Positions 22,244 through 25,346 of a stretch of DNA of 64,000 bases are shown piece by piece. Source of the DNA: Oscillospiraceae bacterium (GTDB taxonomy: Bacteria; Bacillota; Clostridia; Oscillospirales; CAG-272); contig SVTT01000001.1 of assembly GCA_015063625.1 (NCBI GenBank), positions 124,001 through 188,000 on the forward strand, given 5' to 3'. The translations under genes were made by a program, and so were the position numbers. The number at the start of each line of letters is the position of its first letter. Positions within the stretch are counted from its first letter, which is position 1. The notes under the pieces were generated by a model. It was not told the origin of the DNA and did no database searches. It saw nothing but the letters and a program-made list of their open reading frames with translations.

Positions 22244-23659
22244 ATGAACAATCTGGAAAAAACAATGGAAAAAATCGTTGCCCTATGCAAGAACCGCGGC
22301 TTTATTTTTCCCGGCTCGGAGATCTACGGCGGTCTTGCAAACTCTTGGGATTACGGCCCTCTCGGCGTTGAATTTAAAAACAACGTCAAGCGCGCTTGGT
22401 GGAAAAAATTCGTGCAGGAGAGCCGCTATAACGTCGGTCTTGACAGTGCGATCATCATGAACCCCGAGGCATGGGTGGCATCGGGTCACGTGGGCGGCTT
22501 TTCCGACCCCTTAATGGATTGCAAGAGCTGCAAGGCACGTCACCGCGCCGATAAGCTGATCGAGGAATATGCCTTCGAAAACGGGCTTTCCGACAATCCC
22601 GCAGGCTGGAGCTTTGAGGAAATGGCGGCTTATATTGAGGAAAAGGGGATCGCCTGCCCTCAGTGTGGCGGCAAGGACTTTACCTCGATCAAAAAGTTCA
22701 ATCTGATGTTCAAGACCTTCGTCGGTGTCACCGAGGACAGCGCGAGCACCGTATATCTGCGTCCCGAGACCGCACAGGGCATTTTCGTCAATTTCCCTGC
22801 GATCCAGCGCTCCACGCGCCGCAAGCTGCCCTTTGGCGTATGCCAGGTCGGCAAGTCCTTCCGTAACGAGATCACGCCCGGAAACTTTACCTTCCGCACC
22901 CGTGAGTTTGAGCAGATGGAGCTGGAGTTCTTCTGCAAGCCCGGCACCGATCTTGAGTGGTTTGCCTATTGGAAGGATTACTGCAAGCAGTTCCTGCTCA
23001 CACTCGGTATGAGAGAGGAAAATCTGCGTCTGCGCGACCATGAGAAGGAGGAGCTTGCCTTCTATTCCAAGGCAACCACCGACTTTGAGTTCCTGTTCCC
23101 GTTCGGCTGGGGCGAGCTTTGGGGTATTGCCGACCGCACCGATTATGACCTTTCCCAGCATGCGGAGCACAGCGGCAAGGACATGACCTATTTCGACCCC
23201 GAAACCAACGAGCGCTACGTGCCTTATGTCGTCGAGCCCTCGCTGGGTGCTGACCGTGTGGCGCTGGCATTCCTGATCGACGCCTATGACGAAGAGGTGA
23301 TCGATGCGGAGAAGAACGATACTCGCGTGGTTCTGCATCTCCATCCCGCACTCGCTCCCTACAAGGTTGCCGTTCTGCCTCTTTCCAAAAAGCTTGCTCC
23401 CAAGGCACTGGAGATCTATGACGAGCTTGCCAAGTATTTCGCCGTTGACTATGATGAAACCGGATCGATCGGTAAGCGTTACCGCCGCGAGGATGAGATC
23501 GGCACGCCTCTTTGCGTAACCGTCGACTTTGAAACGGTGGGAGATGCCGAAAAGCCTGCCGACAACTGCGTCACGGTCCGTGACCGCGACACCATGGAGC
23601 AGGTGCGCATCCCGATCGCTGAGCTGAAATCCTATATCGAGTCCCGTATTGCCTACTGA
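22244..23659 (+). CDS. glyQS: Glycyl-tRNA synthetase (homodimeric alpha2 type)
   Basis: Class II synthetase that charges tRNA-Gly. 471 residues, the alpha2 form as in Bacillus-lineage and archaeal relatives, not the split glyQ/glyS form. Features: [15 protein letters not shown]-like opening ([19 protein letters not shown]), four zinc-type cysteines (CKSCKARH and CPQCGG), motif 2 region [20 protein letters not shown], and motif 3 [15 protein letters not shown], then the anticodon-binding domain. CAGGAG precedes the ATG. First gene of a transcript that continues into the kinase/PqqD/peptidase trio. Confidence 0.97.
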
Positions 23660-23681: not shown

Positions 23682-24395
23682 GTGCTTCAGATACGAGTTG
23701 CAGAACTGAATATTGAGATCGACAATGCATATCCGTACCTGGCGCGGCAATGCCGTGACTATCTCGCCACCTTCGAACGCGCCGATATCACCGTAAGGGT
23801 CACACCGGAGGAGATCGAGGAGGAAGGGAGAGTCAACCCCTATTCGCTCTCGCCCGACTATCTCGAGTCGGTGTGTGCCTATCGGCAGATCGCGTTTCAG
23901 CTTCCTCTGTTCGGGGCGATCGTATTTCACGCATCGGTGGTGGAGTGTGACGGAAGGGCGTACGCCTTTGCCGCGCACAGCGGAACGGGCAAATCCACGC
24001 ACACAAGGCTTTGGTTGAGGGTGTTTGGAGATCGTGCCCGTGTGATCAACGGTGACAAGCCGATCTTTCGCTTGACCGAACAAGGGTGGCGTGCATACGG
24101 CACCCCCTGGTGCGGCAAAGAAAAATGGGGAGAAAATGCTTCTTCCCCTTTGGCAGCGCTTTGCTTTTTGGAGCGCTCTCCTCGAAATCGTATAGCCCCC
24201 ATCGGCAATGACGAGGCGGTCAACCGCCTGTTCGGTCAGGTCCTGATGCCGAGCGAGCCCGAAACTGCTGACCGCTTTTTCGCCCTGCTCGATGATCTTA
24301 TTCAAAACACCCCCGCATATCTGCTTGGCTGCAATATGGAGCCCGAAGCGGCAGAGGTTGCGTTGGCGGGGATGCAAAAAGGAGAAACAATATGA
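23682..24395 (+). CDS. HPr kinase-like protein of the PqqD-associated type
   Basis: 237-residue P-loop protein related to the C-terminal domain of HPr kinase (HprK), the type found with PqqD or lasso-peptide modification genes. VFHASVV (His83) lies where HprK has its HG, followed by the P-loop AAHSGTGKSTHTRLW (Ser100-Thr106), INGDKPIFR, TPWCGKEKWGENA, PLAALCFLE and LFGQVL. It lacks the N-terminal HprK regulatory domain, and no ptsH is next to it. GTG start at 23682 is preceded by GTGAGGTG, 22 bases after glyQS. It overlaps the PqqD-like gene by four bases. Relatives phosphorylate the C-terminal Ser of lasso peptides; the substrate here is unknown. Confidence 0.8.
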   Translation: MLQIRVAELNIEIDNAYPYLARQCRDYLATFERADITVRVTPEEIEEEGRVNPYSLSPDYLESVCAYRQIAFQLPLFGAIVFHASVVECDGRAYAFAAHSGTGKSTHTRLWLRVFGDRARVINGDKPIFRLTEQGWRAYGTPWCGKEKWGENASSPLAALCFLERSPRNRIAPIGNDEAVNRLFGQVLMPSEPETADRFFALLDDLIQNTPAYLLGCNMEPEAAEVALAGMQKGETI

Positions 24396-24658
24396 TCCGC
24401 ACGAAACATTTTATCAAACGCAAGATCGGCACGCAGTTTGTCATCGCCGCAGTCGGAGAAGCAAGCAAGACCTTTAACGGTGTGATCTCGATCAATGCAA
24501 CGGGTGCATTTATCTGGGATCAGCTGGAGAAGAATATGACCATGGATGAGCTGGTGAGCGCTATGACCGAATATTATGACGTGGATAGTGCCACCGCAAG
24601 AGAGCATGCCACTGCCTTCGTTGATCGCCTGAAGGAGGTTGGCGCGATTGCAGAATGA
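24392..24658 (+). CDS. PqqD family protein (RiPP recognition element-like)
   Basis: 88-residue PqqD-fold protein. The pattern is RKIGTQFVIAAVGEAS, FNGVISINATGAFIWDQLE, MTMDELVSAMTEYYDVD and FVDRLKEVGAI, which match the PqqD beta-strand/winged-helix layout. PqqD proteins bind leader peptides of ribosomal peptides for modifying enzymes. Here no radical SAM enzyme and no precursor gene is seen, only the kinase before and the S26-type peptidase after. Start ATG 24392 overlaps the kinase stop (ATGA). Confidence 0.85.
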   Translation: MIRTKHFIKRKIGTQFVIAAVGEASKTFNGVISINATGAFIWDQLEKNMTMDELVSAMTEYYDVDSATAREHATAFVDRLKEVGAIAE

Positions 24659-25115
24659 AATGACCATGGAGGAAATCTATCCGCTTCTCCTTGAGGTGGT
24701 TGAAAGCGGAGGAGAATTCCGTCTGTATCCTCGGGGCACGAGCATGCTTCCCATGCTGCGAGAGGGAATCGATTCGGTGCTGCTTGCCAAACCCCTGACG
24801 CTTTCTCCCCTGGATATCTGCCTTTACCGCCGCGAAAACGGACAGTTTGTGTTGCACCGCCTGATGCATTTCGACGAGGCGGGTGATCCCGTTTTCTGCG
24901 GTGATAATCAGCTTGCGCCGGAATACGGCATCAAAAGGGAGCAGATCATTGCAAAGGTCACCTCCTATTATCGCGGAGATGAGCACGTTCTGACTGATTC
25001 TCCCAAATACCTTTCCTATCTGAGGCGTCATTGCAATCTGCGTTACCGCAAGCTCTATTTTCTTCCGCGCCGCATCAAGGGGCGCATCAAGCGCATTCTT
25101 TCAAAACAACGGTAA
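24648..25115 (+). CDS. S24/S26 peptidase-like protein (signal peptidase fold, no membrane anchor)
   Basis: 155-residue protein with an S26-like core: LYPRGTSMLPMLREG (Ser32 as candidate nucleophile), VLHRLM (His70) and FCGDNQLAP (Asp86). The Ser-His-Asp layout is that of the SipW/ER type, which uses His rather than Lys. No signal or membrane segment is seen, so it should be cytoplasmic. The last ~35 residues are strongly basic (RYRKLYFLPRRIKGRIKRI), maybe RNA-, DNA- or membrane-binding. TTG 24648 lies 9 bases after AAGGAGG; ATG 24660 or 24666 are alternatives. It overlaps the pqqD stop region. Confidence 0.78.
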   Translation: MQNEMTMEEIYPLLLEVVESGGEFRLYPRGTSMLPMLREGIDSVLLAKPLTLSPLDICLYRRENGQFVLHRLMHFDEAGDPVFCGDNQLAPEYGIKREQIIAKVTSYYRGDEHVLTDSPKYLSYLRRHCNLRYRKLYFLPRRIKGRIKRILSKQR

Positions 25116-25163: not shown

Positions 25164-25346
25164 TCAGAGCAGGTCGGGAACAGAGAATTCGATGGCGGCA
25201 TCGGCGCTCTGCTTTTCCTCCTCTTTTTCGCTTCTTGCGTTCTCTACGATCATGTAAACGGTGAAGTACGCAATGCTGACGACCATCAGAACCGAGAGTA
25301 CGATGGCAAGAATTTGGGTAGCGAGCTTTTTGGTAGACTTTTTCAT
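25164..25346 (-). CDS. Small single-span membrane protein
   Basis: 60 residues. A basic N-terminus (KKSTKKLA) leads into one membrane span (about 10-33, ILAIVLSVLMVVSIAYFTVYMI), then an acidic, lysine-rich tail (RSEKEEEKQSADAA). By the positive-inside rule the tail is outside. GAGGT precedes the ATG on the minus strand. Last gene of the minus-strand operon. Function not recognised; the reading is supported by its start site and by the terminator just after it. Confidence 0.75.
   Translation of the reverse strand: MKKSTKKLATQILAIVLSVLMVVSIAYFTVYMIVENARSEKEEEKQSADAAIEFSVPDLL

Follow-up and report, generated by a model that had tools for sequence, protein, structure and literature searches.

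The three overlapping genes at 23682-25115 of the window, the 64,000-nucleotide stretch of DNA analysed here, probably encode a centralised peptide-tailoring core of LPP type that works on dispersed precursors. Linear polyphosphorylated peptides (LPP RiPPs), published in May 2026, derive from an lppA-K-B-S-D-N cluster of Paenibacillus alginolyticus, in which experiments showed that LppK polyphosphorylates Ser3 of the core, that LppB binds the YxxP leader, and that LppS, a SipW-like protease, removes this leader with the help of LppB (PMC13381572). Comparative sequence analysis of the clostridial genes establishes the trio and its operon layout, the conservation of its products, a precursor family that co-occurs with the kinase (K) and carrier (B) genes, and purifying selection on that family.

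The kinase, carrier and peptidase genes

The source genome is a 1.76-Mb clostridial draft in 28 contigs. As the earlier note had stated, the reading frames of kinase, carrier and peptidase (S) overlap, and all three were confirmed in the window, in the following setting:

22244-23659, plus strand: glyS/glyQS, glycyl-tRNA synthetase, 22 nt upstream of K, context only
23682-24395, plus strand: K, LppK-like HprK-fold kinase, GTG start, 237 aa, with His83 and a P-loop at residues 100-106
24392-24658, plus strand: B, discrete PqqD-fold RRE, LppB/lasso-B1-like leader binder, 88 aa
24648-25115, plus strand: S, LppS-like S24/S26-fold serine protease, candidate leader peptidase, TTG start, 155 aa
25120-25156: 16-bp perfect inverted repeat with A/T runs on its flanks, read from the sequence

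The inverted repeat is probably a shared terminator closing the K-B-S operon; the trio is framed by glyS on one side and, on the other, by a gene of the opposite strand for DNA gyrase/topoisomerase IV A. Positions 25164-25346 of the minus strand encode a single-span membrane protein of 60 aa, convergent with S, and loci L032 and L033 hold ORFs that match it in size, strand and place; it was rejected as a substrate on account of its transmembrane segment, its opposite strand and its lack of a YxxP leader. The window shows no precursor and no radical SAM gene next to the trio, in agreement with the earlier description.

That description had also assigned the three products to an HprK-like kinase with His83 and SGTGKST, a PqqD-fold protein, and a signal-peptidase-fold protein with Ser32, His70 and Asp86 that has no membrane span and a very basic tail, and each assignment holds up. 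His83 and the P-loop SGTGKST (100-106) are present in K, with H83, G101, G103, K104 and T106 invariant in 26 homologues, and the fold of its AlphaFold model (pLDDT 95.4) is that of the PEPCK/HprK group. No Pfam model matches K, and the NCBIfam ScmC and HprK_rel models match it below their cut-offs. B matches Pfam PqqD (PF05402, E 3.5e-16), and a profile of its homologues matches the lasso B1 and LppB structures 5v1u, 6jx3, 9x90 and 9x8z, the LppB structure 9x8z with E 7.2e-6. Asp70 of LppB, which fixes the leader Tyr, corresponds to His72 in B; within the source genus the position is Asp or His.

The best start of S is the TTG at 24648, read from the sequence 9 nt after the Shine-Dalgarno element AAGGAGG at 24632. 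This start gives Ser32, His70 and Asp86, a catalytic set that is invariant in 27 homologues (S28/H66/D82 when numbered from ATG 24660). Pfam S24 scores below threshold, and the model (pLDDT 90.8) matches the fold of LexA, UmuD, SipA and signal peptidase. No membrane span was found in S, whose maximum 19-residue hydropathy is 1.26, and its C-terminal 38 residues include 14 K/R but not a single D/E. Assignment as a signal peptidase I (SipW) was rejected, the score being 11.3 bits against a cut-off of 190 and a membrane anchor being absent. Apparent fusions in family genomes, observed as matches within one open frame, join B to S in ~241-aa frames (G002:C44, G048:C49, G016:C47, G081:C83, G107:C9) and S to the PF14907 (LppN-type) transferase N in 511/512-aa frames (G026:C43, G048:C27).

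The K-B-S arrangement is contiguous in ~50 related loci across Clostridia. One scan of genome contigs found K at 54 loci, a family search found S in 77 of 146 family genomes, and profile counts over the same 146 genomes are 93 for K, 89 for B, 81 for S and 90 for N, with every pair strongly associated; B and S, for example, occur together in 79 genomes, singly in 10 (B) and 2 (S), and not at all in 55. The contiguous loci and this strong co-occurrence place the grouping far from chance. The check on gene neighbourhoods proposed in the earlier note thus came out in its favour, with the trio recurring as a unit, in some cases with a small conserved peptide as its immediate neighbour. Outside the source genus the trio adjoins, at some loci, an MsbA-like ABC transporter, N, or Wzz. 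Several loci also contain long antisense ORFs, which were taken to be spurious. K-type kinases also adjoin a radical SAM enzyme in L060, L069, L078, L083 and L085, with precursor-like peptides near several of these loci, some of them Cys-rich in L060 and L083, and the loci suggest a variant that swaps in or adds a radical SAM step.

Precursor peptides encoded away from the trio

The exact LPP precursor motif, Px9Fx[T/A], is absent from the ORFs of related loci. A looser motif followed by iterative profiles recovered a precursor family of the form MKxxYxxPxxExxxFxxEDVIxTS with an acidic, variable tail, which in relatives adjoins some K-B-S cassettes, for example just upstream of K in L019-L021; the L019 precursor, directly upstream of K, reads MKREYAAPEVDTLIFETEDIIMVSGEFDMNRPVASEDIDEK. 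Profile A4, built without own-genome sequences, was searched against the source genome and matched G000:C22 (MKAIYEAPMAEVMYFSTEDIMTESENDNLGDGEDLGDSDL, E 5.5e-7) and, more weakly, G000:C26 (MKHTYFEPRADVRFLLSMDIIAASGEPQ..., E 0.13) and G000:C16 (MKNEYRMPTIEIFWIMPRDILVSSVDTPP..., E 0.32), the last two values (0.13-0.32) being those before the peptides joined the profile. All three candidates align without gaps and have good Shine-Dalgarno sites, and none of the three lies in the window.

Across 88 distinct peptides, conservation is sharp at Tyr5, Pro8, Glu11, Phe15, Asp19 and Ser24, the last present in 81, and collapses past residue 25; tails are acidic in 92%, and a Shine-Dalgarno core is found for 82 of the 88 vs a background of 14%. 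No Pfam or NCBIfam model covers these peptides, and their profile gave chance matches only against solved structures. Two sister genomes have orthologues of the C26 type, again behind the fusA-like gene, with dN/dS 0.07/0.62 between the sisters. In a second, C22-like type the leader is identical at 24 of 24 residues between sisters and the tail is unrelated; such a constant leader with a variable putative core is a RiPP signature. No orthologue of the C16 peptide was detected. As far as these comparisons of sister genomes reach, the precursors are under purifying selection (dN/dS 0.11-0.17).

The distribution of the family follows that of the trio. The 146 family genomes were searched with profile A5, in which the own-genome sequences are included, and matches at E<=0.01 counted as positive; K and B are present in 58 of 58 precursor-positive genomes, whereas 0 of 46 genomes without K/B/S are positive, and omission of the genomes that supplied profile rows leaves 51 of 51 and 0 of 46. 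Within a class sample of 392 genomes, some of which may have supplied profile rows, 54 are precursor-positive, with up to 20 precursors per genome. Full-length K (E<1e-60) is present in 51 of the 54, and positives among class genomes without full-length K number 3 of 328, about the chance expectation at E<=0.01. Fisher values treat related genomes as independent; even so, and despite the possible profile-row overlap, the contrast between genomes with and without K is very large. The earlier proposal of a minimal kinase, carrier and protease with a substrate encoded elsewhere is borne out to the extent that a putative substrate family lies in trans and follows the trio from genome to genome.

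The precursor is in most cases the second gene of a pair. Of the 43 sampled, 40 follow a gene on the same strand; for 37 the gap stays within 150 bp, and typically it is 10-30 bp. A signal-peptide-like start is found in 27 of 32 complete upstream products vs 86 of 259 genes in those loci (p 2e-10, from a heuristic predictor). Large size and many repeats mark most of the upstream products, which have few Pfam matches (LRR_5, pectate-lyase-like, InlB-type repeats, transglutaminase). A C-terminal domain of ~180 aa, with the pattern ...GxxIRxxxxxGIRFxxxI...ARAYVxxxxxxFYxxxxxNxRSxxxVA, is common to 11 of the 38 genes that stand immediately before a precursor (loci L163, L137, L196, L198, L207, L208, L210, L190, L214, L182 and L213). 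In the source genome the C22 peptide lies 18 bp behind the gene for a 1070-aa secreted protein; the C26 peptide is an exception, behind fusA and before spoIIA-like genes.

The transferase is likewise encoded at a distance. The source genome has two PF14907 (LppN) genes, E 9.1e-46 and 1.5e-39, both in polysaccharide loci and in trans to the trio, and N is found elsewhere in 32 of the 37 family genomes whose K-B-S has no adjoining N. One of the two encodes an 896-aa fusion in which the PF14907 part makes up the C-terminal half and an O-antigen ligase (Wzy_C) the N-terminal half:

L089:8749-11439 (G000:C28), minus strand: PF14907-Wzy_C fusion, source genome

The fusion locus also holds a SIS-domain (GmhA-like) isomerase, a sugar nucleotidyltransferase/HAD fusion and two glycosyltransferase-like genes, and similar long proteins occur at the matching locus of two sister genomes (L120, L121). 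No transporter, LppD-type (MsbA-like) or other, adjoins the trio; an MsbA-like ABC candidate (L090 12167-13942) lies ~1.5 kb away from one of the N genes.

Proposed pathway and competing readings

By analogy with LPP and lasso biochemistry, the RRE protein B would bind the YxxP leader of the small precursors and K would phosphorylate, perhaps polyphosphorylate, the conserved Ser24 at the boundary of leader and tail. The soluble, basic S may then cut the leader near Ser24, which would release an acidic phosphopeptide. An LppN-type nucleotidyl/glycosyl transferase from the polysaccharide loci may decorate the phosphate further, and by the same analogy the peptides may have some link to the cell surface; in pseudomycoidin, PsmN, annotated as a nucleotidyltransferase, installs hexoses on phosphoserine (PMC9266682). 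The whole points to an undescribed route by which modified peptides are made across the genome together with exported proteins. A more specific version, less likely than not, gives each of many secreted proteins a partner peptide of its own. One central kinase/RRE/protease set would phosphorylate and trim these peptides, a polysaccharide-locus transferase may join them to glycan, and at the cell surface each would tag, anchor or regulate its exported protein.

The small peptides could be substrates of a chemistry unlike that of LPP, with K adding just one phosphate or some different group, or with S cutting after Ser24 to give a simple signal or anchor peptide. The differences from LPP in leader spacing and in the active-site spacing of S fit such a scheme, and the end of conservation at Ser24/Gly25 is compatible with a cut there. 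The HprK fold and invariant HprK motifs of K argue against it, however, as does a conserved Ser whose position relative to YxxP equals the LPP phosphosite within one residue, and this reading is rather unlikely.

More improbable still is a decayed or orphan LPP cluster, a remnant with no substrate left, its precursor, transporter and transferase having been lost. It would account for the lack of an A, D or N gene adjoining the trio in the source genus and for G097, one of four genus members, where K-B-S and two N genes are found and no precursor was detected. Yet the catalytic residues are all intact, the trio is retained in 4 of 4 sampled members of the genus, and the precursors that lie in trans are under purifying selection, with N elsewhere in the genome.

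Lasso tailoring, in which K and B would serve a paeninodin-like pathway with cyclase and B2 elsewhere, is very improbable. Proteins of K, B and N type do occur in lasso clusters (PMC9266682), and B is equally close to lasso B1 structures and to LppB. Against this, neither the macrolactam cyclase C nor the B2 peptidase adjoins the trio within the window, the conserved Ser marks the edge of the leader and not the C-terminus, and S is an S24/S26-type serine protease, a type described as new to RiPP pathways (PMC13381572). A housekeeping link to glycyl-tRNA synthetase or translation through a glyS-KBS operon is likewise very improbable: the 22-nt gap and the glyS-KBS-parC-type synteny speak for it, but the linkage with glyQS drawn in the earlier note is no more than local synteny of the source genus, and other genera carry K-B-S in unrelated surroundings, beside capsule, nicotinate, dihydroorotase and other genes, so that functional coupling to glyS was rejected, and the precursor association is independent of glyS.

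With the centralised LPP-like core as the preferred reading, an unannotated trio common in gut Clostridia is matched with a substrate family that can be tested. The distance of such substrates from their enzymes would hide them from gene-cluster mining, and since the peptide genes stand repeatedly right behind genes for secreted proteins, the role of LPP-type peptides becomes directly testable.

Comparison with known systems

HprK-like and PqqD-like proteins are also paired in the NCBIfam ScmC/ScmD, HPr-rel-A and HprK_rel_B systems. Identity with HPr-rel-A or ScmC-ScmD was rejected, with scores far below the equivalog cut-offs (37.8/125 bits for K, 19-22 vs 35-100 for B), and to our knowledge the definition of these systems includes no S26 protease. 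The paeninodin and pseudomycoidin lasso systems (PadeK/PsmK, B1, PsmN; PMC9266682) share with the trio an HprK-type peptide kinase, a discrete RRE and a PF14907-type transferase, but lasso peptides need a cyclase C and a cysteine protease B2, are phosphorylated at a C-terminal Ser and have no S26-type protease.

The closest system is LPP, which has the same core, contrary to the earlier statement that no characterised system of exactly this set was known. Motifs and fold make K an HprK-like kinase, B is a discrete RRE as LppB is, and S is an SpI-like (SpI/S26-type) serine protease with the Ser/His/Asp set of LppS, the three standing in the gene-for-gene order lppK-lppB-lppS. Both sets of precursors have a YxxP leader, with 19 residues from Tyr to Ser in the clostridial peptides vs 18 in LPP (Y-16 to S3), and in some clostridial relatives N and ABC genes adjoin K-B-S; a link to polysaccharide is shared as well. 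The His-Asp spacing differs, at 16 in S vs 25 in LppS. The LPP leader is YxxPxVLxHQxIxFETxxS (Px9Fx[T/A]; PMC13381572), whereas the clostridial leader is YxxPxxExxxFxxEDVIxTS, spaced Px6F..DVIxTS instead of Px9FxT. LPP genes A, K, B, S, D and N lie together, whereas the trio is K-B-S only, with A and N in trans and precursors that are multiple and dispersed; clusters with D and/or N do occur in relatives of the source genome. The trio is therefore called LPP-like and not a member of LPP, as it lacks both the exact leader motif and the gene clustering. The main text on LPP makes no mention of Clostridia, secreted partners or genes elsewhere (PMC13381572).

In layout, the nearest parallel is with the prochlorosins and synechococsins, lanthipeptides of ProcM and SyncM (PMC10783134), where one promiscuous enzyme set likewise serves many scattered precursors with a shared leader and variable core. 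Their lanthionine chemistry, leaders and enzymes are unrelated to the K-B-S system, and most clostridial precursors, unlike theirs, are second genes behind genes for secreted proteins. With the clostridial trio, LPP chemistry would reach beyond clusters to precursors dispersed in the manner of the prochlorosins.
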